Below, one piece after another: positions 36,704 to 52,179 of a DNA stretch of 64,000 nt. Where the stretch lies: NCBI GenBank assembly GCA_017303795.1, contig JAFLBR010000006.1, forward strand, positions 1 to 64,000, given 5' to 3'. The DNA is from Cytophagales bacterium (GTDB lineage: Bacteria > Bacteroidota > Bacteroidia > Cytophagales > Cyclobacteriaceae). The notes under the pieces are model-generated. The model made no database searches and was not told where the DNA came from. It saw only the letters and a list, made by a program, of their open reading frames with translations. Each line of letters opens with the position of its first letter. Within the stretch, counting starts at the first letter, position 1. The position numbers were made by a program, and so were the translations under genes.

Positions 36704-36815
36704 GGAGGCTAAATCGGCATAATTAACAAATTTTCCTGCGCTTGACACAAGCACAATATTCCCAAGCCACTAAAGGTCTATTTTCTGCTAAAATTCGCAC
36801 TTTTTTATTACCTAA

Positions 36816-36849
36816 ATTGACAGCTTGTAGGCGATTTGAATTACCTTTA
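36816..36849 (+). promoter_or_regulatory. Probable promoter of the alpha-glucan operon
   Basis: ATTG (36816-36819), a 22-base spacer and TACCTTTA (36842-36849) match the -33/-7 pattern with one mismatch in each element. Transcription would start about three bases before the ATG at 36856, giving an almost leaderless mRNA. No clear operator dyad is visible here. Confidence 0.45.
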
Positions 36850-36855
36850 AGCAGT

Positions 36856-38652
36856 ATGAAAAAAGTGTGCATTGTCCTTCTCACGCTAGGTGTTCTGGCC
36901 TGCCAGCCGCCCAAAGAAAAAATACCCGAACCCATGTTAGAAAAACAAGTGACCAAACCGGTTATCTATCAAATGATGACCCGCCTCTTCGGCAATAAAT
37001 CAACGACCAATAAAAGTTATGGAACACTACAGGAAAATGGCGTAGGCAAGTTTGCCGACATTAACGAAACGGCTTTGCTGGCCATTAAAGAATTAGGTGT
37101 TACGCATGTTTGGTACACCGGTGTGATTGAACATGCCTTGCTTACCGATTATTCGCAACATGGAATTGCTTTGGACGATGCCGATGTAGTGAAAGGCCGG
37201 GCCGGTTCGCCTTACGCGATAAAAGATTATTACGACATCAATCCCGACCTGGCAACGGATGTGAAAAACCGGATGGCTGAGTTTGAGGCATTGGTAACGC
37301 GCACGCACGCAGCCGGTATGAAAGTAATTATCGACTTTGTGCCCAACCACGTAGCGCGTGCGTACAAGAGCGATGCTAAACCAGCAGGTGTAAAAGATTT
37401 AGGTGAAGGCGATGATACATCTGTTTCGTTTAAAGCTTCCAACAACTTTTATTATTTACCGGGCCAGACTTTCCAGCCACCCGCACGCTACAACCCATTA
37501 GCACAAGAGAAAGCAACATCAGAAGATAAAAAGTTTCTGGAAAATCCCGCCAAGGTTACGGGCAACGATCAGTTTACGGCAACACCTGGCATAAACGAAT
37601 GGTTTGAAACGATTAAACTCAACTACGGAGTTGATATTCAAAATAATCGTAACAAGCATTTCGATCCGATACCCAACACGTGGGTGCAGATGAAAGATAT
37701 TCTGGTGTATTGGGCACAAAAAGGTGTAGATGGTTTTCGATGCGATATGGCCGAAATGGTACCGGTTGAATTCTGGCAGTGGGCTGTGCCACAAGTAAAG
37801 GCTGCGGCTCCGCATGTAATCTTCATTGCCGAAATCTATAATCCGCAGGAATACCGCAACTACATTCATAACGGTAAGTTTGATTTGCTTTACGACAAAG
37901 TGCAGTTATACGACACGCTGCGTAACCTTACCAACGGACAAGGAAATGCAAATTACATTACAGGCATTCAACAATGGTTGGCTGATATCAATCCACACAT
38001 GTTGCACTTTTTGGAAAACCACGATGAACAACGCATTGCCTCAAAAGATTTTGCAGGCGATCCGTGGAAGGCAGTTCCGGCAATGGTAATCAGTGCTACA
38101 ATTGACAAAGCTCCGGTTATGATTTACTTTGGGCAGGAGGTAGGCGAGCCCGGTTCTGGTGCCGAAGGTTTTGGTGGCGAAGATGGCCGCACTACCATTT
38201 TTGATTATTGGGGTGTGCCCGAACATCAGAAATGGATGAACGATGGAAAGTTTGATGGTGGTAAACTAAGCGACAACCAAAAAGGTTTGCGCCAGTTCTA
38301 TGCTGATATTTTAAAGTTCTCTTCTACTAATCCAGCTATTGTACAAGGTGCCTATTACGACTTAACCGTTTTTAATAAGCAACAAGGCAACATTCCGCAT
38401 CTGGTGCATGTGTTTGCACGTGTGCAAAGCGAAGAGCGATTGGTAATTGTGTCGGGCTTTAACGATAAACCGCTTCGGGTTAAAATAAAGCTAAGCGATG
38501 AGGTGTTGCAGGCTTTTAACTGGAAACAAGAAAACGATTATGTTGGTCGCGACTTGTTGCGCAGCGGAATGGATATTGGTTTAAGTAAAGACGGAACGTT
38601 TGAAGTAGATGTTCCACCTTATGTATCTTATATTTTTAAAATCAAAAACTGA
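36856..38652 (+). CDS. GH13 alpha-amylase-type lipoprotein
   Basis: From the ATG at 36856 the 598-residue product starts MKKVCIVLLTLGVLACQPPKE, a lipobox with lipidated cysteine at residue 16; the longer frame from 36742 would put the promoter inside the gene. The four GH13 motifs are present: IDFVPNHVA, GFRCDMAE (nucleophile D297), IFIAEIY and FLENHDEQR. It should hydrolyse or transfer alpha-1,4-glucans outside the inner membrane. It opens a seven-gene operon, and its stop overlaps the next start (TGATG). Confidence 0.9.
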   Translation: MKKVCIVLLTLGVLACQPPKEKIPEPMLEKQVTKPVIYQMMTRLFGNKSTTNKSYGTLQENGVGKFADINETALLAIKELGVTHVWYTGVIEHALLTDYSQHGIALDDADVVKGRAGSPYAIKDYYDINPDLATDVKNRMAEFEALVTRTHAAGMKVIIDFVPNHVARAYKSDAKPAGVKDLGEGDDTSVSFKASNNFYYLPGQTFQPPARYNPLAQEKATSEDKKFLENPAKVTGNDQFTATPGINEWFETIKLNYGVDIQNNRNKHFDPIPNTWVQMKDILVYWAQKGVDGFRCDMAEMVPVEFWQWAVPQVKAAAPHVIFIAEIYNPQEYRNYIHNGKFDLLYDKVQLYDTLRNLTNGQGNANYITGIQQWLADINPHMLHFLENHDEQRIASKDFAGDPWKAVPAMVISATIDKAPVMIYFGQEVGEPGSGAEGFGGEDGRTTIFDYWGVPEHQKWMNDGKFDGGKLSDNQKGLRQFYADILKFSSTNPAIVQGAYYDLTVFNKQQGNIPHLVHVFARVQSEERLVIVSGFNDKPLRVKIKLSDEVLQAFNWKQENDYVGRDLLRSGMDIGLSKDGTFEVDVPPYVSYIFKIKN

Positions 38653-40199
38653 TGAAAAAGATAATAACGGTTTTATTAGTTGTCCTGATCTGGAGTTGCC
38701 AGCCAACTCCTGAAGTTGTTAGCAAGTGGCCTCATGGTGTTAACTACGAAATCTTTGTTCGCTCGTTTGCCGATAGTAATGGCGATGGCATTGGCGATTT
38801 CAACGGAGTAACCAATAAACTCGATTACCTGAAAGAACTTGGTGTAGGTGGTATCTGGCTTATGCCGATTATGCCTTCGCCTACGTATCACAAATATGAT
38901 GTAGCCGATTACAAAGCGGTTGATCCGGAATACGGAACCGTAGAAGATTTTAAGAAGCTTGTTGCTGAAGCACACAAACGCGGCATTCGCATTCTGGTTG
39001 ATTTAATTTTGAATCACTCCGGCTCTGGCCATCCGTGGTTTCAGGAAGCGATTAAAGGCAAAGACAATCCTTACCGTGATTATTATGTATGGGCCAAGAA
39101 AGATTCCATCCGCAGTCAGCTTTCAAAAAAAACAACGTCACTGGATTCTGATAATATAACACAATGGCATGCGGTGAATGGCGATACGGTAAGCGAACAT
39201 TATTATGGATTTTTCTGGGGTGGTATGCCTGATATGAATTTTGATAATCCGAAAGTAAGACAAGAGTTTGTGGACATTGGAAAGTATTGGCTGGAAGAAA
39301 TGCAGGTAGATGGTTTTAGGTTAGATGCAGCCAAACATATTTACCCAACCGATCGGGCTGAAGATAATCATGCCTTCTGGGTTTGGTTCCGCGATGAAAT
39401 GCAAAAGATTAAACCCGATGTTTATCTGGTAGGCGAGGTGTGGAGTGGAGCCAATGAAGTTGCGCCTTACCTGAAAGGATTACCGGCACTATTCAATTTT
39501 GATATGGGTTACGCCATTACTGCGGCTGTACGGGCGGGACAAGACACCATTCAATTGATTGATAAGTATAAATCAATAAACGACTTCTACCTTAAAACTA
39601 CCAGCGATTACATCGATGCAACTTTTCTGAAGAATCACGATCAGAATAGAATCTTAAGCGAGTTAGGTGGCGATCAGCAAAAAGCGAGAGTGGCCGCAGC
39701 AATCTTGTTCTCTCTTCCAGGAACTCCGTATGTGTATTATGGCGAAGAAATTGGAATGCTTGGTACAAAACCGGATGAATTTATTCGCGAACCGTTTTTA
39801 TGGAGCAATGCGAGTGATCCAATCCAGACTAAGTGGGAAGAGGCACGCTATAGTAATCTGCAAACTGTAAAACCGTTGGCCGAGCAACAAGCCGATCCTA
39901 ATTCGTTGTTTAATTTTTATAAAAAGTTTATTACTTATCGTAATGGAAGTAAAGCGTTGACTTATGGATCGCTGATCAAATCTGAACTAACGGTTAAAGA
40001 AATTGTAGCACTTATCCGCAAGTATGAGAATGAGGAGAGTTATTTAATTCTTCATAATATCTCTGATAAAGAAATCACTTTGAAGCCGGAAGGGCAATTA
40101 GAGGTGTACACCAAAGTTGATTTTGTATCGCAAGGTGAAGTGATTAAGAGTGAAGAAGGTTGGGTAATACCGGCCCATACATCGGTAATATTGAAATAA
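38652..40199 (+). CDS. GH13 alpha-glucosidase/amylase-type lipoprotein
   Basis: The 515-residue product starts MKKIITVLLVVLIWSCQPTPE, a lipoprotein signal with lipidated cysteine at residue 16. GH13 motifs: VDLILNHSG, GFRLDAAKH (nucleophile D225), YLVGEVW and FLKNHDQNR, all intact. The start (HGVNYEIFVRSFADSNGDGIGDFNG) resembles oligosaccharide-acting amylases and trehalose synthases. With the preceding gene it makes two envelope amylases whose maltose-size products would suit the maltokinase encoded downstream, though no sugar transporter is in the operon. Confidence 0.9.
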   Translation: MKKIITVLLVVLIWSCQPTPEVVSKWPHGVNYEIFVRSFADSNGDGIGDFNGVTNKLDYLKELGVGGIWLMPIMPSPTYHKYDVADYKAVDPEYGTVEDFKKLVAEAHKRGIRILVDLILNHSGSGHPWFQEAIKGKDNPYRDYYVWAKKDSIRSQLSKKTTSLDSDNITQWHAVNGDTVSEHYYGFFWGGMPDMNFDNPKVRQEFVDIGKYWLEEMQVDGFRLDAAKHIYPTDRAEDNHAFWVWFRDEMQKIKPDVYLVGEVWSGANEVAPYLKGLPALFNFDMGYAITAAVRAGQDTIQLIDKYKSINDFYLKTTSDYIDATFLKNHDQNRILSELGGDQQKARVAAAILFSLPGTPYVYYGEEIGMLGTKPDEFIREPFLWSNASDPIQTKWEEARYSNLQTVKPLAEQQADPNSLFNFYKKFITYRNGSKALTYGSLIKSELTVKEIVALIRKYENEESYLILHNISDKEITLKPEGQLEVYTKVDFVSQGEVIKSEEGWVIPAHTSVILK

Positions 40200-40222
40200 C
40201 ATTATTAAACTATTTTGCACGA

Positions 40223-42166
40223 ATGTTAAGTGGAAAGAAGCGAGTACTGATTGAGAATGTTCAACCGCAGGTAGATGGTGGTTTATATCCTGCCAAGCGA
40301 ACTGTTGGCGAGCGTGTGGATGTAACGGCCGCTATTTTTGGTGATGGTCACGATCACATACGAGGTGAAGTTTTATTTAAAAAGCAAGGCAGCAAACAGT
40401 GGTCAAGTGTGGAACTGGCGCCAGCTTATAATGACGAGTGGCAAGCATCTTTTTATGTTCCCGAAAAAGGAAATTATGTATTTACAGTTCAGGCCTGGAT
40501 TGATCATTTTGAAACCTGGTACGATGGCTTCAAAAAGAAAGCCCTTGCCCAGGTAGATGTAACGGTCGAGTTAGCAGAAGGTGTAATACTTTTGAAAAGA
40601 TTAGGTGAAACCAAATCTGCACTACTGGCTACAGCCCGCAAATTGGAAGACAAGAATCAGGCAAATGCTATCGCGTTTGTGTTGAGTGATGAATTTGCAA
40701 AGCTCGTACATGAAAATCCTTTGCGCGATAATGAAACTAAATACGAACAGGAGTTTATTGTTCAGGTAGAGCATCGCAAAGCAAACTTCAGTGCATGGTA
40801 CGAGTTCTTTCCAAGATCATCCTCGCTCGAATCCGGTAAAGCCGGAAATTTTAATGATTGTATAAAATTGCTACCGCGCATAGCGGCAATGGGCTTCGAT
40901 GTATTATACTTTCCGCCAATACATCCCATTGGTAAGATCAACCGCAAAGGAAAAAACAATAATGTAAAGTCTCAACCCGGTGAACCCGGTTCTCCCTGGG
41001 CTATTGGCAGCGATGAAGGCGGCCACAAAGCCATCTTGCCGGCTTTGGGTACACTCGAAGATTTTAAAAAGTTAGTTGGCGATGCGCGTAAACTCGGTAT
41101 CGACATTGCCATGGATATTGCGTTTCAATGTGCGCCCGATCATCCCTATGTAAAAGATCATCCGGATTGGTTTAAACAACGGCCCGATGGTTCGATACAA
41201 TACGCAGAGAATCCACCAAAAAAATATCAGGACATTTATCCTTTCAATTTCGAATCGGATGATTGGAAAAATTTATGGGAAGAATTGAAGTCAGTGTTCA
41301 TCTATTGGATTGAGCAAGGCGTAACTATTTTCAGAATTGATAATCCACACACTAAACCTATTCCGTTTTGGCAATGGGTAATAGCAGAGGTGCAGAAAGT
41401 TCATCCGGATATAATCTTCTTATCGGAAGCGTTTACCCGTCCGAAGATAATGGCTTCGTTAGGTAAAGTTGGATTTACACAATCGTACACGTATTTCACC
41501 TGGCGGGTATCTAAACAAGAAATAACCGAGTACATGAATGAATTGGTATTCGGTCAATCCAGAAATTATTTCCGTCCGAACTTCTGGCCCAACACGCCTG
41601 ATATTCTACCGTATCATTTGCAAAATCAAGGCGAGAATATTTTTATTCTCCGATATGCATTGGCCGCAACGCTTTCATCCAACTATGGTGTGTATGGTCC
41701 GCCTTACGAGTTTGGTGAGAACAATCCCATTGAGGGCAAAGAAGAATATTACAATTCAGAAAAATTCGAAATCAAGCATTACGATTGGAAGCGCACCAAC
41801 CGGCTTACGGACATTATGAGTCTGTTGAATAAAGTGCGCAAAGAAAATGCTGCTTTACAATCTACCTGGAATCTGCAATTCTGCCCGATTGAAAACAGTC
41901 AGATCATTGCCTACTTAAAAGCTACGGATGATCTTTCAAACATTATTTTGGTTGTGGTAAACCTCGATCCCAACAACACACAACATGGTTATGTTCAGTT
42001 GCCAAAAGCTAAATTGAAATTATCAGATAAAATTAATGTGAAACTGCACGATCTGATAACCGATGAACAATTCACATGGACACAAGAATGGAACTATGTT
42101 CACCTGAATCCACATAAGATGCCGTTTCATTTATTTAAAGTAGAAATTCACGAGTCAAACATGTAG
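40223..42166 (+). CDS. glgE: GlgE: alpha-1,4-glucan:maltose-1-phosphate maltosyltransferase
   Basis: From the ATG at 40223 the 647-residue product begins MLSGKKRVLIENVQPQVDGG. It has the N-terminal GlgE domains, then the GH13_3 catalytic core: MDIAFQCAPDHP, FRIDNPHTKP (nucleophile D373), IFLSEAFTRP (acid/base E402), SYTYFTWRVSKQE and FRPNFWPNTPDI. It adds maltosyl units from maltose 1-phosphate to the non-reducing ends of alpha-glucan in the cytoplasm. All expected residues are present. It is followed after three bases by the maltokinase fusion that should supply its substrate. Confidence 0.95.
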   Translation: MLSGKKRVLIENVQPQVDGGLYPAKRTVGERVDVTAAIFGDGHDHIRGEVLFKKQGSKQWSSVELAPAYNDEWQASFYVPEKGNYVFTVQAWIDHFETWYDGFKKKALAQVDVTVELAEGVILLKRLGETKSALLATARKLEDKNQANAIAFVLSDEFAKLVHENPLRDNETKYEQEFIVQVEHRKANFSAWYEFFPRSSSLESGKAGNFNDCIKLLPRIAAMGFDVLYFPPIHPIGKINRKGKNNNVKSQPGEPGSPWAIGSDEGGHKAILPALGTLEDFKKLVGDARKLGIDIAMDIAFQCAPDHPYVKDHPDWFKQRPDGSIQYAENPPKKYQDIYPFNFESDDWKNLWEELKSVFIYWIEQGVTIFRIDNPHTKPIPFWQWVIAEVQKVHPDIIFLSEAFTRPKIMASLGKVGFTQSYTYFTWRVSKQEITEYMNELVFGQSRNYFRPNFWPNTPDILPYHLQNQGENIFILRYALAATLSSNYGVYGPPYEFGENNPIEGKEEYYNSEKFEIKHYDWKRTNRLTDIMSLLNKVRKENAALQSTWNLQFCPIENSQIIAYLKATDDLSNIILVVVNLDPNNTQHGYVQLPKAKLKLSDKINVKLHDLITDEQFTWTQEWNYVHLNPHKMPFHLFKVEIHESNM

Positions 42167-42169
42167 AGC

Positions 42170-45100
42170 ATGGCAAGCAAGAACTCCGATGCATTATGGT
42201 TTAAAGATGCCGTTATATATGAGCTAAGCGTTCGGGCATTTAACGATAGCAATGCCGATGGCATAGGCGATTTTCAAGGCTTGGTTCAGCGATTGGATTA
42301 CCTGGAAGATCTGGGTATCAATACAATCTGGCTATTGCCTTTTTTTCCATCACCACTTAAAGATGATGGTTACGATGTTACCGAATACTACGATATACAT
42401 CCGGATTATGGAACGTTATCCGACTTCAAACTTTTTTTGAAAGAGGCTCATCGCAGAAACATAAGGGTGATTACAGAGTTGGTACTGAATCATACTTCCG
42501 ATCAACATCCCTGGTTTCAAAAGTCGCGTAAAGCTCGTTCGGGTTCACGCTACAAAGATTATTATGTGTGGAGCGATAGCGCTGACCGATACCGCGATGC
42601 ACGTATTATGTTTGCCGATGAAGAATCCTCTAACTGGTCGTGGGATAACGAAGCCAAGATGTATTACTGGCATCGGTATTACCGCCATCAACCCGAATTG
42701 AACTTTGAAAATTCAGAAGTGCAGCTTGAAATCATTAAAGTGGTTGACTTCTGGATGAAGATGGGTGTAGATGGATTTCGTTTAGCCAACGTGCCTTTCT
42801 TGTTTGAAGAAGAAGGAACCAGTTGTGAGAACCTGCCACAGACACACGCCTTCTTAAAACGTCTTCGTGCACACATCGATAAACATTACGACAACCGGGT
42901 GTTGCTGGCCGAAGCCAACATGTGGCCCGAAGATGCTGCGCAGTACTTTGGTCAAGGCGATGAGTGCCACATGAATTTCCATTATCCGTTAATGCCTCGG
43001 TTGTACCTCGGTCTTCGCACGGAAGATACCTATCCGATAATTGATATTCTGGAACAAACACCATCTACACCACCCAACACTCAGTGGGCTTTATTTCTTC
43101 GCAACCATGATGAGATTGGTTTGGAAATGGTAACCGAAGAAGAAAAGGATTATTTGTTTAAAGCTTACGCTACCGATCCGAATACCAAACACAACATTGG
43201 GATTCGCAGACGATTGGCGCCTTTGCTGAATAATGATCGTAGAAAAATAGAATTACTTTACGCGATTTTATTTTCACTTCCCGGCACACCGGTGCTGTAT
43301 TATGGCGATGAGATTGGAATGGGCGATAACATCTATCTGGGTGATCGGTTTGGTGTCCGCACGCCTATGCAGTGGAATATGAATATAAATGCCGGATTTT
43401 CTTCAGCTAATCCGCAAAAGTTATTCTTACCGATAATTACTGATCCGATGTATCGTCACGAATCGATTAACGTGGCTACACAAGAAGAGAACCCATCTTC
43501 GTTGTTATGGTGGATTCGCAACCTGTTGTCGATGCGCAAGCGATTGGGAGTTTTTGGAAAAGGAAATCTGAAATTTATAGAAAGCAGCAACTCGAAAGTA
43601 CTTTGCTTTGCACGTTCATACGAGAAAGAGAATATTATTGTTGTGGCTAACCTTTCGCAATTCAGCCAGGCCACTACGCTTGATCTGAAGTCATTCAAAG
43701 ATTGTGACATCACGGAAGTGTTTAGCCAGAATCGGTTTATGAGTGTAGGCGAGGGTGAGTACTCTATCACAGTTGGCCCTTACGGATATTTCTGGTTTCA
43801 GGCCGATCAATCCGAGAAGAAGGAGCAAGGCAACAACTCGAATGAACTGTTCTTATTTAAATCTGAACTTTCATGGGAACGTACGTTTAGTAATTACAAC
43901 GATGTGCGCGTGTTAGAGCGCAAGGTATTGCAACCGTTTATGAAAAAGTGTCGCTGGTTTGGCGGAAAGGCGAGAGCTATTTCCAAAATCAGTGTAAATA
44001 AAATGATTCCGCTTAAAGTGGATGGCGAATCGCATTACCTGGTAATTGTGGAAGTACACTATGTGCAACGCCTACCGGAATTGTATTTCCTCCCAATGTG
44101 CTTTATGCCATCGGATGGTATGTTCGATAAAGTTGAATACACCACCCAAAGTGTAATCTGCCGGGCCGACATACAAGGCAAAGTTGGGTTTGTGGTGGAT
44201 AGTAGTTACCACAAAGGCTTCCGCGATTTTCTATTCGTAAGTATGGATCGCAAAGTTCGTGTAAAGGAAGATGAAGGCACACTTGAATTTAATAGCAGCG
44301 TTTTTACTAAACTAAATTCAGATAAAGTAGAGTCCAAAATTCTGAAGGCAGATTCCAGCAACACTGCCATGATTTACAACGATAGATATTTTTTCAAATT
44401 TTATCGTAAAATAGAAACCGAGATTAATCCCGATCTGGAGATTGTTCGCTTCTTATCAGAGAACACATCTTTCCGCAATGCGCCTAAGTATGCCGGTAGT
44501 ATGGAGTTTCGCGATAATGATGGAAAAATTATTGTGTTCGGATTGCTACAAGAGAAAGTTGACAATCAAGGCGATTCGTGGATAATGACCATTGACTCGG
44601 TAGGTCGTTTCTACGAACGCGTTATGGCAAAAGCCAAGAAGGAGAAGTTACCGCAATTGATAAACAAAGCTGCGATTCAATTTGAAGACGCACCGGAACT
44701 GATCCAGGAATTTATTGGGCGCGGATTTTATGAACGTGTAGTACGCTTAGGGCAGCGCACAGCCGAAATGCATATCGCATTAGCATCTGATAAAGTTAAT
44801 CCTGCCTTTGCACCCGAAACGTTTAATACCAATTACCAACGCTCGCTTTATTCGGCACTTCGCAAATTAACCCGCGATCGGTTTAAACTGTTAGAGCAAT
44901 CGCTCGATAAACTAAATGACGAAACAAAAGTACTTGCTGAGAAAGTATTGGCTTTAGAAGATAAAGTGCTGGAGTGTTTTAGTGAAGTGTATCAAACGAA
45001 GATCAGCGCACTGAAAACCCGCATTCATGGCGATTATCATCTGGGACAAGTGCTGTTTACGGGCAAAGACTTTATTATTATAGACTTTGAAGGCGAACCC

Positions 45101-45496
45101 GGCTTTAGTTTTAGCGAACGCAGGTTAAAGAAAAGTCCACTTAAAGATGTAGCAGGAATGATGCGCTCGTTTCACTACGCAGCTTTTGGTAAAATTTTAT
45201 TGAATGAAAACTATCGCGAAAAAGATATTGAGTTTCTGGAGCAGTGGGCTGAACAATGGCAACATTATGTAAGCCGTTTTTACCTCGGTGCATATCTGGA
45301 GCGCATGGGCTCACGAGCCGAACTGAATGGCGAAGATGAAATCCTGATTCGTACCTACCTGCTTGAGAAGGCAATTTATGAATTAGGTTACGAATTGAAT
45401 GGCCGACCCGACTGGGTAAATATTCCGTTGCGCGGAATTTATTATCTGATGAGTAGGTATTCGCAAGCAAAAGACGATCGCAAAAAGAAAAGCTGA
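42170..45496 (+). CDS. treS: TreS-maltokinase fusion; TreS half lacks the catalytic nucleophile
   Basis: The 1108-residue product joins a trehalose synthase-type GH13 domain (about 1-545) to a maltokinase (about 575-1108). The TreS half follows Mycobacterium-type TreS closely (ARIMFADEESSNWSWD, CENLPQTHAFLKRL, FLRNHDEIGLEMVT). The acid/base E248 (LLAEANMW) and D314 (RNHDE) are present, but the nucleophile position reads GFRLAN instead of GFRLDA, giving Ala206 (codon GCC) where Asp is expected. The kinase half has IHGDYHLGQ and IDFEGEP intact, so it can phosphorylate maltose to maltose 1-phosphate. The TreS half is probably inactive as a standard retaining enzyme and may be structural. It ends overlapping glgB (TGATGA). 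Confidence 0.92.
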   Translation: MASKNSDALWFKDAVIYELSVRAFNDSNADGIGDFQGLVQRLDYLEDLGINTIWLLPFFPSPLKDDGYDVTEYYDIHPDYGTLSDFKLFLKEAHRRNIRVITELVLNHTSDQHPWFQKSRKARSGSRYKDYYVWSDSADRYRDARIMFADEESSNWSWDNEAKMYYWHRYYRHQPELNFENSEVQLEIIKVVDFWMKMGVDGFRLANVPFLFEEEGTSCENLPQTHAFLKRLRAHIDKHYDNRVLLAEANMWPEDAAQYFGQGDECHMNFHYPLMPRLYLGLRTEDTYPIIDILEQTPSTPPNTQWALFLRNHDEIGLEMVTEEEKDYLFKAYATDPNTKHNIGIRRRLAPLLNNDRRKIELLYAILFSLPGTPVLYYGDEIGMGDNIYLGDRFGVRTPMQWNMNINAGFSSANPQKLFLPIITDPMYRHESINVATQEENPSSLLWWIRNLLSMRKRLGVFGKGNLKFIESSNSKVLCFARSYEKENIIVVANLSQFSQATTLDLKSFKDCDITEVFSQNRFMSVGEGEYSITVGPYGYFWFQADQSEKKEQGNNSNELFLFKSELSWERTFSNYNDVRVLERKVLQPFMKKCRWFGGKARAISKISVNKMIPLKVDGESHYLVIVEVHYVQRLPELYFLPMCFMPSDGMFDKVEYTTQSVICRADIQGKVGFVVDSSYHKGFRDFLFVSMDRKVRVKEDEGTLEFNSSVFTKLNSDKVESKILKADSSNTAMIYNDRYFFKFYRKIETEINPDLEIVRFLSENTSFRNAPKYAGSMEFRDNDGKIIVFGLLQEKVDNQGDSWIMTIDSVGRFYERVMAKAKKEKLPQLINKAAIQFEDAPELIQEFIGRGFYERVVRLGQRTAEMHIALASDKVNPAFAPETFNTNYQRSLYSALRKLTRDRFKLLEQSLDKLNDETKVLAEKVLALEDKVLECFSEVYQTKISALKTRIHGDYHLGQVLFTGKDFIIIDFEGEPGFSFSERRLKKSPLKDVAGMMRSFHYAAFGKILLNENYREKDIEFLEQWAEQWQHYVSRFYLGAYLERMGSRAELNGEDEILIRTYLLEKAIYELGYELNGRPDWVNIPLRGIYYLMSRYSQAKDDRKKKS

Positions 45497-47454
45497 TGAC
45501 AAAGAAAACCAAACCTAAGGCGGAAGCACTGGATTCGTTCAGCTTGCTCACCGATTTCGACATTCACTTGTTTAGAAGTGGCAAGCACTTTAAACTTTAT
45601 GAGAAGTTAGGTGCGCACCTGGTAACGTTTAACAAACAGGCGGGTACTTACTTTGCCGTGTGGGCACCGAATGCCCGCAGCGTTTCTGTTATTGGAAACT
45701 TCAATCATTGGAATAATAACGATCATAAACTTTCGCCCCGTTGGGATGAGTCTGGCATCTGGGAAGGTTTCTTTCCGGGCGTAGGAAAAGGTGAAGCGTA
45801 TAAGTATGCCATTAACTCCAACACGGGTGAATATCTGGAGAAGGCCGATCCGTTTGCATTCTATGCAGAGGTGGCACCACGCACGGCTTCTATTGTTTGG
45901 GATCATAATTACACCTGGCGCGATAGTGTTTGGTTAAACGACCGTAAGAAGAACGCCTCCAAACCAAAACCATATTCGGTGTATGAAGTGCATGCCGGTA
46001 GCTGGCGCAGAAAACCTGAAGATGGAAATCGTTCGCTTTCCTATAAAGAATTAGCTGTTGATTTGGTGAACTATGTAAAGGAGAATGGTTTTACGCATGT
46101 AGAGTTTTTGCCCATCATGGAGCATCCGTTCTTTGGTTCATGGGGTTATCAACTTACCGGTTACTTTGCACCCACCAGTCGTTTTGGTGAGCCACAGGAT
46201 TTTATGGAATTGGTAAATGCGTTGCACGATGCCGAGATAGGAGTTATCCTCGATTGGGTTCCTTCGCATTTTCCGGGCGATGCTCACGGGCTTTATAAAT
46301 TTGATGGCACACATCTGTTTGAACATGCCGATCCCCGCAAAGGCTTTCATCCGGACTGGAGTAGCTATATCTATAATTATGGCAGACCTGAAGTGCGATC
46401 ATTCCTAATCAGCAATGCATTATTCTGGATAGATGTTTTTCATGCCGATGGTTTACGCGTTGATGCGGTTGCTTCCATGCTTTACTTAGATTATTCCCGT
46501 AAGGAAGGCGAGTGGATACCAAACGAATATGGCGGAAATGAAAATATAGAAGCGATAAACTTTTTGAAAGAGTTTAACGAAGTAGTGTATGGTAATTTTC
46601 CTGATGCAGTAACTATTGCCGAAGAAAGTACAGCCTGGCCTGGAGTTTCTAAACCTACTTATTTGGGTGGGCTCGGCTTTGGGCAGAAGTGGATGATGGG
46701 TTGGATGCACGACACATTGAGTTATTTTAAATCCGATCCTGTTCATCGTAAGTATCATCAGGATGAAATTACGTTCAGTATTGTGTATGCGTTTACCGAA
46801 AACTTTATGCTGCCGCTTTCGCACGATGAAGTGGTGCATGGTAAAGGTTCGCTTATGGGCCGCATGCCGGGCGATGAGTGGCGGAGGTTTGCCAACCTGC
46901 GTTTAATGTTTACATATATGTTCACCCATCCAGGCACTAAGTTGCTGTTTATGGGTGGCGAGTTTGGGCAAACAGCCGAGTGGAATCATGATAGTAGTTT
47001 AGACTGGCATTTGCTGGGTCATGCACCCCATCAGGGAATGCTCACGCTAATTCGTGAGTTGAATCACTTGTATAAAAACGAACCGGCTTGTTTTCAATTT
47101 CCATTTGATAATCGTGGGTTTGAGTGGGTTGATTACTCCGATCGCGAAAACAGCGTAATTGTTTTTATGCGCAAGTCTGATAACAAACATGAATCTATTT
47201 TGGTGGTGTGTAACTTTACGCCTGAGATTCGTGAACATTACCGGATAGGCGTGCCGCTACGCGGAACGTATAAAGAAATTTTTAATTCGGATAATCTGGC
47301 ATTTGGTGGCAGCGGACAATTAAATCAAGGTTTGCTTTACACCTCGCCTGTTAAATATCATAATCGCGATTATTCAGTGTCCATTACGCTACCTCCCTTG
47401 GGCGCTGCTGTTTTAAAACTTGTTGAAGAAAAAGCTGAGTTTGATTTGGAGTAA
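45496..47454 (+). CDS. glgB: 1,4-alpha-glucan branching enzyme GlgB
   Basis: The 652-residue product has a CBM48 N-terminal domain (about 35-125, TYFAVWAPNARSVSVIGNFNHW), the GH13 core with LDWVPSHFPGD, GLRVDAVASM (nucleophile D323), IAEESTAWP (acid/base E376) and LPLSHDEVVHGKGS, and a C-terminal beta domain. It introduces alpha-1,6 branches into glucan, the last step of the GlgE route. Length is normal for GlgB without the extra N1 domain. Translationally coupled to the TreS-maltokinase gene. Confidence 0.96.
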   Translation: MTKKTKPKAEALDSFSLLTDFDIHLFRSGKHFKLYEKLGAHLVTFNKQAGTYFAVWAPNARSVSVIGNFNHWNNNDHKLSPRWDESGIWEGFFPGVGKGEAYKYAINSNTGEYLEKADPFAFYAEVAPRTASIVWDHNYTWRDSVWLNDRKKNASKPKPYSVYEVHAGSWRRKPEDGNRSLSYKELAVDLVNYVKENGFTHVEFLPIMEHPFFGSWGYQLTGYFAPTSRFGEPQDFMELVNALHDAEIGVILDWVPSHFPGDAHGLYKFDGTHLFEHADPRKGFHPDWSSYIYNYGRPEVRSFLISNALFWIDVFHADGLRVDAVASMLYLDYSRKEGEWIPNEYGGNENIEAINFLKEFNEVVYGNFPDAVTIAEESTAWPGVSKPTYLGGLGFGQKWMMGWMHDTLSYFKSDPVHRKYHQDEITFSIVYAFTENFMLPLSHDEVVHGKGSLMGRMPGDEWRRFANLRLMFTYMFTHPGTKLLFMGGEFGQTAEWNHDSSLDWHLLGHAPHQGMLTLIRELNHLYKNEPACFQFPFDNRGFEWVDYSDRENSVIVFMRKSDNKHESILVVCNFTPEIREHYRIGVPLRGTYKEIFNSDNLAFGGSGQLNQGLLYTSPVKYHNRDYSVSITLPPLGAAVLKLVEEKAEFDLE

Positions 47455-47490
47455 AATTGATTTTTTAATCTGTTCTTAAATTAGTTGACT

Positions 47491-49905
47491 ATGTCGGGTG
47501 TAGCACCACGTAAGTACGTTTGTATTCATGGCCATTTTTATCAACCGCCTCGCGAAAACGCCTGGCTGGAAGTAATCGAGTTGCAGGACTCTGCGCATCC
47601 ATACCACGATTGGAACGAGCGCATAACTGCCGAGTGTTACGAACCCAATGCCACTTCCAGGATTTTAAATGAAAGCAGCGTAATCAAAAACATTGTTAAT
47701 AATTACGCCCGGATCAGTTTCAACTTTGGGCCTACCTTACTTTCGTGGATGGAAGTATATGCACCCGAAACATACGCAGCTGTACTGGAGGCCGATAAAC
47801 TAAGCGCGAAAAATTTTGGTGGACATGGATCGGCAGTAGCGCAGGTGTATAATCACATTATTATGCCGCTGGCTAATCGTGCCGATAAAGAAACTCAGAT
47901 TGTTTGGGGCATCCGCGATTTTGAGCATCGCTTTAAGCGCAAGCCTGAAGGCATGTGGTTAGCCGAAACCGCTGTGGATACTGAAACATTGGAAGTGCTG
48001 GCTGAAAATAATATCCGGTTTACCATACTCGCACCGCGACAGGCAAAAGCAGTTCGCAAAATCGGAACAACCGATTGGACGGAAGTAAATGACCGTACCG
48101 TTAATACTACCAAAGCTTACACCTGCAACCTGCCCAGTGGCAAAAGTATTATTCTCTACTTCTACGAAGGCGACATCTCGCAAGGCATTGCGTTTAATGG
48201 TTTATTAAACGATGGTAAACGCTTTGCTGATCGGTTGTTAAGTGTGATTGATGAGAGCGATCCGGAACCACAGTTGGTACACGTAGCTACTGATGGCGAA
48301 ACGTATGGTCACCATCATAAGCATGGTGAAATGGCTTTGGCTTATTGCCTCGATTACATTGAAAAAGGAAACCATGCGCAGTTAACAAACTATGCCCAGT
48401 TTCTCGAACTCTGTCCACCGCAAGAAGAAGCACAGATAATTGAGAACAGTTCGTGGAGTTGTGTGCATGGTGTAGAGCGCTGGCGGGCAAACTGTGGTTG
48501 TAATTCGGGTAAGCCCGGTTATCACCAACTCTGGCGGCAACCTTTGCGCGAATCGTTAGATTGGTTGCGCGATAGAGCAACAGAAATTTTTGAACGCGAA
48601 GGTTCAAAAGTTTTGCACAACCCCTGGGCCGCCCGCAACGAATACGTTGAAGTTGTACTTAATCGCACAGACGATAATGTGCGAAAATTTTTACAGACAC
48701 ATGCATTACCCGAGGCTTCGGCCAATCGCATTTTACGCATTTTAGAGATACAACGGCACGCCATGCTGATGTACACCAGTTGTGGGTGGTTTTTCGATGA
48801 GATTTCCGGAATAGAAACAACACAGGTTATGCAATATGCTTGTCGCGTAATTCAGTTGGCAAACCAGATTGGTGATGTTGATCTGGAACCAGAGTTTATG
48901 CAACGCCTGGAAAGTGCGCCCAGCAATGTGAGTCAATATGAAAACGGAAGTGGCGTATATAAGAAAGTCGTGCTTCCATCGCGCACCAACTTACAACGCG
49001 TAGGCATTCATTATGCAGTGTCTTCTATTTTTGAAGACGAACCCGAATCACTCACCGTCTTTAATTACAATACTGCCAACGAATCTTTTATCAAGAAAGA
49101 AGCGGGTGAACAAAAACTCGTGTTGGGTATCACGAAAGTAAAATCGGTGGTTACCCGATCGGAAAAGAAATTTGCGTTTGCCGTTATCTACCTGGGTAAG
49201 CACAACATTATCGGAAACATATCGCTTGATATGGAACCCGATAAATTTGCCAGCATGCAATTCAGAATGGTGAAAGCTTTTGAAGAAGGTAGGTTGGGCG
49301 ATGTGATTGGCTTGATGCAAATGTATTTTGGTCCTGATAAGTACACCATCTGGCATTTGTTTCAGGATGAGAAACGTAAAATTCTGGATAAGATTTCGCA
49401 GGAGAGTATGGCTGAGTTGGAGAGTTCGCTCCGCAAGAGCTACAATCGCGACTATGTGCTGATAAACGCATTGGCCAACAACGATATTCCAATTCCGAAT
49501 ACGTATAAAACTACGTTTGAATATATTCTGAATGCCGATCTGATTAAAACGTTTCAATCCGATAAGATCAACATTAAAGAAATGGAACGCATCGTAGCAG
49601 AGCTGGCGCGTTGGAATTTGAAGATTGAAGACCCGCGTAAGCTTTCGCGGTTGGCAGGGGAGAGTGTGTTTAAGGAATTGAATCGCATTAGCAGCGAACG
49701 CGATAATGTAAAGCGTGTACAACGCCTCAATCGCATGTTTCCATTACTGGAAAAATTTCAACTCGATCCTAACTTTCACAAAAGCCAGAACTTGTACTTC
49801 GAAATTTCGATGGAGAACAAACGCGAAAACCAACCGGCTTTAGATGAGACCTGGATTGAACAATTTAATTTACTGGGAAAAAATTTAGGTGTGAAAGTAG
49901 AGTAG
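47491..49905 (+). CDS. GH57/DUF3536 alpha-glucan-active protein
   Basis: The 804-residue product (ATG at 47491; a TTG six bases earlier is not preferred) is a GH57 glycosidase-type protein joined to a DUF3536 C-terminal region. It has the CIHGHFYQPPRENAW start, GMWLAETAVD with the probable nucleophile E159, and TDGETYGHHHKHGE with the probable acid D268. GH57 enzymes act as amylases, 4-alpha-glucanotransferases or branching enzymes on alpha-glucans. There is no signal peptide. It follows glgB by 36 bases, so a role in trimming or rearranging the GlgE product is likely; the exact reaction is unknown. Confidence 0.85.
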   Translation: MSGVAPRKYVCIHGHFYQPPRENAWLEVIELQDSAHPYHDWNERITAECYEPNATSRILNESSVIKNIVNNYARISFNFGPTLLSWMEVYAPETYAAVLEADKLSAKNFGGHGSAVAQVYNHIIMPLANRADKETQIVWGIRDFEHRFKRKPEGMWLAETAVDTETLEVLAENNIRFTILAPRQAKAVRKIGTTDWTEVNDRTVNTTKAYTCNLPSGKSIILYFYEGDISQGIAFNGLLNDGKRFADRLLSVIDESDPEPQLVHVATDGETYGHHHKHGEMALAYCLDYIEKGNHAQLTNYAQFLELCPPQEEAQIIENSSWSCVHGVERWRANCGCNSGKPGYHQLWRQPLRESLDWLRDRATEIFEREGSKVLHNPWAARNEYVEVVLNRTDDNVRKFLQTHALPEASANRILRILEIQRHAMLMYTSCGWFFDEISGIETTQVMQYACRVIQLANQIGDVDLEPEFMQRLESAPSNVSQYENGSGVYKKVVLPSRTNLQRVGIHYAVSSIFEDEPESLTVFNYNTANESFIKKEAGEQKLVLGITKVKSVVTRSEKKFAFAVIYLGKHNIIGNISLDMEPDKFASMQFRMVKAFEEGRLGDVIGLMQMYFGPDKYTIWHLFQDEKRKILDKISQESMAELESSLRKSYNRDYVLINALANNDIPIPNTYKTTFEYILNADLIKTFQSDKINIKEMERIVAELARWNLKIEDPRKLSRLAGESVFKELNRISSERDNVKRVQRLNRMFPLLEKFQLDPNFHKSQNLYFEISMENKRENQPALDETWIEQFNLLGKNLGVKVE

Positions 49906-50746: not shown

Positions 50747-50977
50747 ATGAATAAGAAATTATCTGCAAAATTTGGTGAAGTGATAAGAGAACTCCGCAAG
50801 GAAAGAAATTTGTCGCAAGAAGCGTTAGCAGACAAAGCTGATGTTCATAGAACGTACATTGGAATGATTGAAAGAGGCGAAAAGAACATCACCTTAGAAA
50901 ATATTCAAAGGCTAGCTAAGGCATTAAATGTTTCTCTGAAATCGATATTTGAAAGGCTAGAAAAAATTTCAAAATGA
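50747..50977 (+). CDS. HTH controller (C) protein of a restriction-modification system
   Basis: The 76-residue product is a compact XRE-type helix-turn-helix protein (FGEVIRELRKERNLSQEALADKADVHRTYIGMIERGEKN), the size and composition of C proteins that time the expression of restriction enzymes. It overlaps the nuclease gene by four bases (ATGA), so both are made from one transcript. Two C-box-like dyads precede it. Its DNA is AT-rich compared with neighbouring housekeeping genes, suggesting acquisition. Confidence 0.88.
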   Translation: MNKKLSAKFGEVIRELRKERNLSQEALADKADVHRTYIGMIERGEKNITLENIQRLAKALNVSLKSIFERLEKISK

Positions 50978-52179
50978 CTATCAACTTTCTAGGGCAAGGA
51001 TTTGAAGCTGAATCTCCAAACTCAACTGGCAATTATTTGATAAGAAACTTCTCTTCGGACAGGTTTAATAGATTTTTTGGAATGTCTGCATTTGCCAGTG
51101 TAGCAGGTGTGAGAGTTTTATCGGAGCATATTTTAAGGGCTAAGGCTAATTTCGAATCGTTAAGTCTAGTAGTCGGTGTAGACCAAGAAGGTACTTCGAG
51201 AGAAGCGCTAAATGAACTACTAAATCTAGATATAGGAACTTACGTATTCTATCAAAAGGAGCCACCAATATTCCACCCAAAGATTTATCTTTTCGAAGGA
51301 TCAAACGATAGAAGTTTAATTGTTGGCTCGTCAAACTTGACAGCAAGAGGCATATTTGAAAATGTTGAAAGCTCTGTTTTGATTGAATTCAATAGAGAGG
51401 ATCAAGCCGGAAATGAATTTCTCAATGAACTTAAGTCATACTATTCAGGGCTTTTTAATTTAAATGATCCCAACCTATTTAGATTAACCTCGGATCTAAT
51501 CTCTAGGTTTGTTAATAAAGGTATTGTTCCAACAGAAAGCTCCAGAAGAGCTAAACATGATAAGAAAGCAAACCCAAGGCAAAACAGTACAGAACAAGAT
51601 GACTTTGTCATTCCAGCTCGAAGTACATCAAGGATACCGCGTGGACTAAGAAGCCGGCCAAGAACAGATTCAGTAGTAGTAAGTGTGATAGAAGAACTAG
51701 AGTTGCAGAATACAGAAGCTACACAGAATGGTATTTTGGTTTGGCAAAGCGGTCCGTTGACCGAAAGAGATTTGAATATTCCGACAGGTTCAAATACAAA
51801 TAATACTGGTTCAATGTTGTTCAAAAAAGGTCTATTAGAAGGAATTGATCAACGACACTATTTCAGAGAAGAGGTATTTTCTTCACTTCCATGGGCATCT
51901 GACCCAGAATCACAATATCCGCACCTTGAAAGAGCTACGGCATTTTTTAGAGTTATAGTAATGGGAACAGACCATGGCGTTTTTTCAATGAGTCTTACTC
52001 ACAATACTAGAACAGATACAAAAACTTACGAACAAAAGAACTCAATGACATCAATAAGTTGGGGTTCAGTAAAAGCTCTAATAGCAAAGGAAGAGTTAAT
52101 TGGTAAGTCAGCATCTCTTTTTAGAGTTACATCAAGTACTAATGAGTTTACACTTGTGATTGAAGCTCTAGCTTCGTGA
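50974..52179 (+). CDS. PLD-fold restriction endonuclease (BfiI/NgoFVII-like)
   Basis: The 401-residue product has one phospholipase D-type active-site half in the N-terminal domain: FHPKIYLFEG (H101, K103), then VGSSNLTARG (N121) and ESSVLIEF (E133). BfiI-type enzymes dimerise to form one metal-independent nuclease site and carry a B3-like DNA-binding domain at the C-terminus. A poorly conserved linker (about 180-235) and a roughly 160-residue C-terminal domain fit that layout. Position between a C protein and a methyltransferase makes restriction the best reading. The recognition site is unknown. Confidence 0.8.
   Translation: MTINFLGQGFEAESPNSTGNYLIRNFSSDRFNRFFGMSAFASVAGVRVLSEHILRAKANFESLSLVVGVDQEGTSREALNELLNLDIGTYVFYQKEPPIFHPKIYLFEGSNDRSLIVGSSNLTARGIFENVESSVLIEFNREDQAGNEFLNELKSYYSGLFNLNDPNLFRLTSDLISRFVNKGIVPTESSRRAKHDKKANPRQNSTEQDDFVIPARSTSRIPRGLRSRPRTDSVVVSVIEELELQNTEATQNGILVWQSGPLTERDLNIPTGSNTNNTGSMLFKKGLLEGIDQRHYFREEVFSSLPWASDPESQYPHLERATAFFRVIVMGTDHGVFSMSLTHNTRTDTKTYEQKNSMTSISWGSVKALIAKEELIGKSASLFRVTSSTNEFTLVIEALAS

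Follow-up and report, generated by a model that had tools for sequence, protein, structure and literature searches.

In the published accounts drawn on here, the fusions of trehalose synthase (TreS) and maltokinase in Pseudomonas aeruginosa PAO1 and Estrella lausannensis lie beside glgE and glgB. A 2024 review, in the sections consulted, treats the fusion as bifunctional (PMC11046441), and operons with GlgE are usually read as a route from trehalose to glycogen. We analyse here a fusion with the same domains in the same order, encoded on the forward strand at 42170..45496 of a 64,000-nucleotide stretch from a Cytophagales bacterium (contig JAFLBR010000006.1, positions 1 to 64,000; hereafter, the window). 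An NCBIfam model labels its product, of 1108 amino acids (aa), maltose alpha-D-glucosyltransferase. Unlike the PAO1 and E. lausannensis fusions, it belongs to a clade whose TreS half has no catalytic nucleophile and has altered +1 positions; unlike those systems, its operon includes genes for amylase-like lipoproteins, and neither TreY nor MalQ was found in the genomes that carry only a nucleophile-less (“dead”) copy. An earlier note on this DNA could see the loss only as an oddity of one protein; it marks a conserved clade. We favor, at a probability of roughly 70%, the reading that the fusion is a GlgE-pathway maltokinase fed by maltose, whose TreS half is a dead pseudoenzyme kept for assembly or activation and perhaps for sugar sensing. 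Since the first step of the usual route cannot run by the known mechanism, the clade's operon is to be read from maltose to glycogen.

GH13 barrels without catalysis of their own exist elsewhere. In rBAT/4F2hc and plant ISA2, which belong to other subfamilies, such a barrel is paired with an active partner (a transporter and a debranching enzyme, respectively), whereas the partner of the window's TreS half is a kinase fused to it; rBAT entered our analysis as a sequence match only. For a TreS half without its nucleophile, we found no description among the titles and abstract openings listed by a search that covered few subscription journals. A designed counterpart is Mycobacterium tuberculosis TreS D238A (PDB 8UQV), which has the TreS fold and an Asp-to-Ala change at the same column. 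That mutation is man-made, single and set in an unfused TreS, whereas the loss in the clade is natural and old and comes with further changes in the pocket.

The two halves of the window protein are each recognized by a dedicated model. The TreS half, a GH13 barrel followed by a C-terminal beta domain (residues 10-544, 42197..43801, forward strand), matches TIGR02456 (treS_nterm) with 834.9 bits against an NCBIfam cut-off of 678.35; the maltokinase half (residues 568-1092, 43871..45445, same strand) matches TIGR02457 (TreS_Cterm/putative maltokinase) with 442.8 bits against 375.05. The Mak_N_cap domain (PF18085) is found at residues 590-646 with 24.6 bits (cut-off 22), and the general APH model PF01636 stays under its cut-off (20.4 versus 23.2). 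An AlphaFold2 model built from 40 fusions (mean predicted local distance difference test score, pLDDT, 82.5; predicted template modeling score, pTM, 0.57) has TreS structures as its best PDB matches in Foldseek, with 5x7u at TMt 0.87, root-mean-square deviation 4.0 and 57% identity. Loops 312-317, 337-348, 378-400, 406-410 and 419-433 have pLDDT below 50 and some of them hold pocket residues, so we make no claim about pocket geometry.

The nucleophile motif of the window fusion reads GFRLANVPFL, with Ala206, encoded by GCC at 42785..42787 (forward strand), where the catalytic Asp is expected. Both the open reading frame translation and the alignment bear out this substitution, which the earlier note had reported. 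The Asp-Glu-Asp triad of GH13_16 is therefore incomplete (A206, E248, D314), and the CENLP loop is retained. Across the site, the five solved TreS sequences with printed alignments align to the window protein without gaps; four of them (5x7u, 5h2t, 4lxf, 8uzh) have Asp at the nucleophile column, and the fifth, 8uqv, is the engineered D238A mutant. A scan of the interval between D201 and E213 found no acidic residue, which together with the gapless alignment rules out an Asp displaced by one residue. The other GH13 proteins of the operon keep the motif Asp (GFRCDM in GH13a, GFRLDA in GH13b, FRIDNP in GlgE, GLRVDA in GlgB), which we take to be their nucleophile; the loss is thus confined to the TreS half.

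In the kinase half, the motifs HGDYH and IDFEGEP, which the earlier note had described as kept, are both intact: Asp955 (45032..45034) and Asp972 (45083..45085), both on the forward strand, are Asp in 39 of the 39 rows of the clade described below, and all 39 also keep K743 and K600. We assume that the Asp of HGD is catalytic and that of DF metal-binding. The 2024 review names one catalytic and one metal-positioning Asp for maltokinase (PMC11046441). Judged by the sequence features tested, the window protein is a maltokinase and not a catalytic trehalose synthase.

A family search of 245 genomes gave 39, the window's included, with a match at 71% identity or more over the TreS half; the lowest identity of these clade rows to the window protein over the whole fusion is 66%. 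The family is taken as Cyclobacteriaceae from two so-named relatives, L122 and L123, at 72-78% identity. At the nucleophile column the 39 rows carry Pro (12), Ser (10), Ala (9) or Gly (8) and never Asp, whereas all 69 less similar fusions of the order, collected from the order and family searches at 58% identity or more over the TreS half, have Asp, a pattern far from chance. The 39 genomes span eight genus codes and every frame is open. In a quick tree of 82 fusions, from which the columns flanking the site had been removed, the 39 form one clade (SH-like approximate likelihood ratio test support, 100) on a long stem of 0.83 changes per site. The earlier note's view that this is not a decayed gene therefore extends to the whole group: 39 genomes share the loss, with open frames and, in the pairs that allowed an estimate, a low ratio of nonsynonymous to synonymous substitution (dN/dS).

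More widely, among the best 80 of 577 confirmed TreS-kinase loci from named organisms of many phyla, the nucleophile is Asp in 76, and the four others are three members of the clade and L151, from a Saprospirales metagenome-assembled genome, which has Thr. A quick mixture-model tree of 44 rows places L151 as sister of the clade with support 100, on a long branch (0.9) and with an outgroup that is not clean. Because of this placement, the dead lineage probably predates the family. Asp is present in each of five other fusions found at class level. Of 395 class genomes, 11 gave a match at E <= 1e-200, and no further Saprospirales-like relative turned up among these. The L151 fusion itself (L151:5216-8542) has intact kinase motifs; no GlgE-like open reading frame was found on its 16.5-kb stretch.

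Around the lost nucleophile, the pocket is kept in part and altered in part. D69, H108, R204, H313, D314 and R397 are invariant in the 39 clade rows, E248 is kept in 38 (one has Asp), and position 68 is Tyr in 21 and Phe in 18. Measured against 46 Asp-bearing rows, which are near-invariant at the positions compared (207 and 210 are Ala and Tyr in all 46), the clade has changed A207 to Ser or Asn (38/39), Y210 to Phe (37/39), R214 to Glu (33/39; the rest are Gln in 3, Arg in 2 and Ala in 1), T317 to Gly or Ala (39/39), D394 to Phe or Tyr (36/39) and R406 to Leu, Ile, Val or Ser (39/39). Thus, the earlier note's statement that the rest of the domain keeps its usual residues holds for E248, D314 and the CENLP loop but fails at these six positions. 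In the partly consulted report on DrTS, Ala210 and Tyr213 lie in the +1 subsite and Tyr213 is essential for trehalose synthase activity (PMC4257617). With DrTS numbering mapped to the window protein by hand, the +1 set (counterparts of Ala210, Tyr213, Glu320 and Glu324) is broken at 207 and 210; E315 is invariant and E319 nearly so among the 12 clade members of alignment A1. Taken by residue conservation, the putative glucose-holding −1 site survives, the nucleophile is gone and the acceptor side is remodeled.

From the motif, the GH13 mechanism and the published Asp-to-Ala mutant, we infer that the TreS half has lost its activity. The report on M. tuberculosis TreS D238A, as far as consulted, describes a protein that is catalytically inactive and still binds the trehalose analogue 6-TreAz with a conformational change, which its authors hold to be necessary for catalysis (PMC11019547). 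Because this mutant is inactive yet binds the analogue, we read the TreS half of the clade as dead and maybe still sugar-binding. Lacking the Asp nucleophile, it should form no glucosyl-enzyme and hence would not interconvert trehalose and maltose. Maltose released by amylases and glucan-modifying enzymes would instead pass directly into the kinase half and be phosphorylated to maltose 1-phosphate, which GlgE would polymerize and GlgB branch. The dead half would be retained as a quaternary core that the kinase needs for assembly or activation, and its preserved −1 pocket may sense a glucoside and tune the kinase. The earlier note had proposed a maltokinase carrying a pseudoenzyme and a GlgE route fed by maltose; that proposal agrees with a nucleophile missing throughout the clade, with kinase motifs that remain whole, with the linkage to GlgE and amylase-like lipoproteins, and with the gene content of the dead-copy-only genomes (below).

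Published work, each report consulted in part, offers models for both the feed and the retained core. In P. aeruginosa, MalQ and the TreS/Pep2 fusion together turned maltohexaose into maltose 1-phosphate in vitro, and the latter compound was still present in mutants of treY and of treZ (PMC8084333). In this bypass, the kinase half of the fusion likewise takes maltose that does not come from TreS; unlike the dead-copy-only genomes, PAO1 has retained TreY, TreZ and MalQ, and its TreS half is active, though slow. In mycobacteria, a TreS tetramer is the core of the TreS:Pep2 complex, in which the C-terminal domain of TreS docks the kinase (PMC6509496, PMC11046441), and TreS markedly raised the activity of M. 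tuberculosis Pep2 (PMC6509496).

The dead half is still under constraint. Within the clade, 227 of 548 TreS columns and 140 of 549 kinase columns are invariant (at least 98%). Of 14 clade pairs, 8 allowed an estimate of dS and gave dN/dS values of 0.005-0.030 over the TreS half; the other six were saturated. As a clock, we used GlgE of the same operons in 171 clade pairs and 28 Asp-bearing pairs, the latter more divergent and from several families. Relative to GlgE, the barrel evolves at 0.62 in the clade versus 0.35 in Asp-bearing fusions and the kinase half at 0.86 versus 1.26. The barrel has thus relaxed about 1.8-fold yet still evolves at a lower rate than either GlgE or GlgB; the kinase has tightened. 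Since it is the slowest of the parts clocked in the clade (GlgE, GlgB, the C-terminal domain and the kinase half being the others; GH13a, GH13b and GH57 were left out), the TreS half is not evolving freely; nor is it as tightly held as ever, given the faster rate than in Asp-bearing fusions.

At matched TreS identity (0.75-0.90), kinase-half identity is 0.746 in the clade (589 pairs) versus 0.497 in the others (609 pairs), a contrast that according to the clock stems in part from the faster clade barrel. Over all pairs, unmatched, mean identity is 0.60 versus 0.22 for the linker and 0.67 versus 0.38 for the N-cap. Linker and N-cap are where the halves would be expected to meet, and their conservation fits an integrated machine.

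The reverse case also occurs. Among the 69 Asp-bearing rows, five of them unreadable, at least one of Asp955 and Asp972 is missing from 8 of 12 readable rows where the genome has no GlgE match and from 2 of 52 where it has one. The ten fusions with a live TreS half and one or both kinase Asps lost are L016, L028, L029, L073, L216, L224, L225, L228, L231 and L233, eight of them in genomes without a GlgE match. In genus g170, both kinase Asps are lost in all four readable rows and a GlgE match is absent from all six genomes, two of which are less than 90% complete. Rows that count as intact by columns 955 and 972 may still carry worn motifs, as in L025 and L033-L035 (HGDLKL or HGDLQL, DFGGDP or like). 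No readable row has both halves dead, and all 39 dead-TreS rows keep both kinase Asps. A half thus tends to be lost along with the pathway it belongs to, yet the fusion persists, and this pattern is our strongest hint that a dead half still serves the living one. In the clade, the nucleophile has been lost in the course of evolution and the remainder retained; together with the reverse cases, this makes a non-catalytic role of each half directly testable.

We infer the maltose feed and the role of the dead half from such patterns, and the latter can be construed in two ways. The dead half may have evolved into an allosteric sensor, in which a glucoside in the −1 pocket would close the domain and, by way of the conserved interdomain region, switch the kinase, making the pace of glycogen synthesis follow a sugar signal. 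More generally, the fusions would have divided their functions in both directions, one half dying alongside its pathway in a protein that remains fused. We offer this as a tentative idea that may well prove wrong. A serious rival, to us a possible but somewhat unlikely account, is a passive scaffold: the TreS half would be an inert core for folding or oligomerization of the kinase, sensing nothing, and its pocket residues would merely support the barrel. The mycobacterial architecture, with its tetrameric core and docking C-terminal domain, would suit a scaffold, as would the near-equal rates of the C-terminal domain relative to GlgE (0.98 in the clade, 0.94 in Asp-bearing fusions) and the fact that fusions with lost kinase Asps likewise keep their dead half. 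However, a scaffold should need less than what is kept, namely D69, H108, R204, H313 and D314, all counted to the −1 subsite, in every row and E248 in all but one.

Gene content bears on the maltose-fed reading. We tallied 56 genomes: 23 with the dead copy only, 16 with both copies (dual), and 17 with an Asp-bearing copy only (17 of the 31 genomes that had a match and no dead copy). In that order, GlgE is present in 22, 16 and 13; TreY over its cut-off in 0, 14 and 14 (in G404 it lies in pieces, below cut-off); OtsA in 4, 16 and 17; MalQ in 0, 14 and 17; and GH65 (PF03632) in 22, 16 and 10, or 48 of all 56. Set against all genomes with an Asp-bearing copy, the dead-copy-only genomes thus have TreY in 0/23 versus 28/33, MalQ in 0/23 versus 31/33 and OtsA in 4/23 versus 33/33. 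With TreY absent and OtsA in four, the usual trehalose supply is mostly lacking in the dead-copy-only genomes. Nor did these 23 yield a second TreS match at E <= 1e-100, including any of the standalone TreS-like proteins (open frames of ~510-770 aa, 35-43% identity) seen in the order and family searches. Each of the 16 dual genomes has a single GlgE N-domain match, which ends ~1.4 kb from the dead copy, and no GlgE was found beside the Asp-bearing copies of the six read with ~20-kb stretches.

Several points weigh against the reading of a maltose-fed kinase with a retained, dead TreS half. The genome tallies are phylogenetically non-independent, and the Fisher tests for TreY, OtsA and MalQ (p < 1e-10) are descriptive only. 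Dual genomes have OtsA in 16 of 16 and TreY over cut-off in 14 of 16, so that a lack of trehalose alone cannot explain the loss of the nucleophile. MalQ, which supplies maltose in the known bypass, was found in none of the 23 dead-copy-only genomes, so any maltose source proposed for them is a candidate. The GH65 protein in 22 of these 23 could be a trehalose phosphorylase, as PF03632 cannot separate maltose from trehalose phosphorylases. In one of the dead-copy genomes, G415, the GlgE search gave no match. With GlgE as the clock, the clade's barrel runs about 1.8 times faster than that of Asp-bearing fusions, so some of the constraint on it has been eased. Finally, adding TreS made little difference to M. 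smegmatis Pep2 in the partly consulted report (PMC6509496), so activation, though possible, is no general property of TreS; with two mycobacterial species in disagreement, the clade serves as a natural test of whether TreS renders the kinase a non-catalytic service.

A gene cluster in the window's own genome touches on the same question (L212:8278-14872, on G000:C2 at ~70-77 kb): it holds GH65, a beta-phosphoglucomutase and a GH13 glucosidase-like protein. By its gene content, this cluster would be for maltose or a related disaccharide and suits maltose handling. Its GH13 protein, on the other side, scores above the cut-off of the phosphotrehalase subfamily PRK10933 (553 versus 535) and under that of the TreC equivalog (626 versus 799); the cluster may have a trehalose role, and trehalose may be present in the cells. 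The simple cause “no trehalose in the cell” is insufficient, given the dual genomes with OtsA and TreY and the GH65 of the others.

Two kinds of protein encoded in the operon are candidates for supplying maltose, the amylase-like lipoproteins and the GH57 protein. By analogy, the GH57 protein is possibly a glucanotransferase that takes the place of the missing MalQ: PoGH57 of Pontibacter sp. SGAir0037, which lies in a GlgE locus, has 4-alpha-glucanotransferase activity according to the partly consulted report (PMC11206854). The window's GH57 is 47% identical to the GH57 at a like locus of Pontibacter mucosus (L138).

A TreS half that still catalyses by an altered mechanism, for instance with E214 as substitute nucleophile, or by another transglycosylation or hydrolysis, seems to us quite improbable. 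The acid/base Glu and Asp314 are almost or entirely invariant, and the Arg at 214 of Asp-bearing fusions has mostly become Glu. But E214 is not universal, the lost position accepts Ala, Ser, Pro and Gly, which fits no common chemistry, and Tyr210, which maps to the DrTS tyrosine reported as essential (PMC4257617), is Phe in most rows. The clade has gained several acidic positions, but E214, the one close to the lost Asp in sequence, falls short of universality by the count above, and the idea of a universal replacement nucleophile was rejected.

It is very improbable that the dead copy is a regulatory subunit that assembles with the Asp-bearing copy of dual genomes and tunes it. Both copies do occur together in 16 of the 39 genomes, but the other 23 have only the dead one, and the six dual genomes in which both were read have them in different gene neighborhoods. 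Sequencing error or a decaying gene can be dismissed, since the loss is common to 39 genomes from eight genus codes, the column holds any of four residues, the frames are open and, in the estimable pairs, dN/dS is low.

The fusion is part of a run on one strand of the window, in the order GH13a, GH13b, GlgE, fusion, GlgB and GH57-DUF3536, all on the forward strand. GH13a, an alpha-amylase-like lipoprotein (PF00128), is the open reading frame 36742..38652, its true start probably lying inside; GH13b, a second one, follows at 38652..40199 (PF00128 above cut-off, SusG_C just below). The maltosyltransferase GlgE is at 40160..42166 (PF11896, GlgE_dom_N_S, at C21:40238-40771 of the genome, 5.4e-55, over cut-off), the branching enzyme GlgB at 45496..47454 (PRK05402, PRK12313 and TIGR01515, each above cut-off), and the GH57-DUF3536 protein, by analogy a possible 4-alpha-glucanotransferase, at 47485..49905 (PF03065, PF12055). 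The window and the sister operons thus have glgE, maltokinase and glgB together, as in a GlgE pathway locus.

Besides the window, 20 dead-copy loci were read together with long flanking stretches; 11 belong to dead-copy-only genomes, 6 to dual genomes and 3 to named organisms. The order GlgE-fusion-GlgB-GH57 recurs in 18 of them. The exceptions are L093, from G415, in which no GlgE separates GH13a from the fusion, and L122, whose contig ends within GlgE. Of the 20 loci, 18 have GH13a (absent from L101, cut off in L122) and 7 have GH13b; a simple lipobox pattern occurs in 18 of 23 GH13a and GH13b homologues of the sister operons. GH57 with DUF3536 stands downstream of GlgB in all 20. The Asp-bearing loci of five single-copy genomes (L116-L120) read GlgE-fusion-GlgB, and TreY lies within ~7 kb of the Asp-bearing fusion in three genomes checked by coordinates (G205, G219, G237).

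GlgA-like Glyco_transf_5 matches (PF08323) occur in 55 of the 56 genomes, at G000:C24:58897-59565 in the window's, in open frames of only 269-336 aa. These are presumably shorter than a whole glycogen synthase, and being too short they were not used as evidence of GlgA. Just downstream of the operon, at 50974-52179 of the window, lies an open reading frame whose product, judging from its motif, may be phospholipase D-like.

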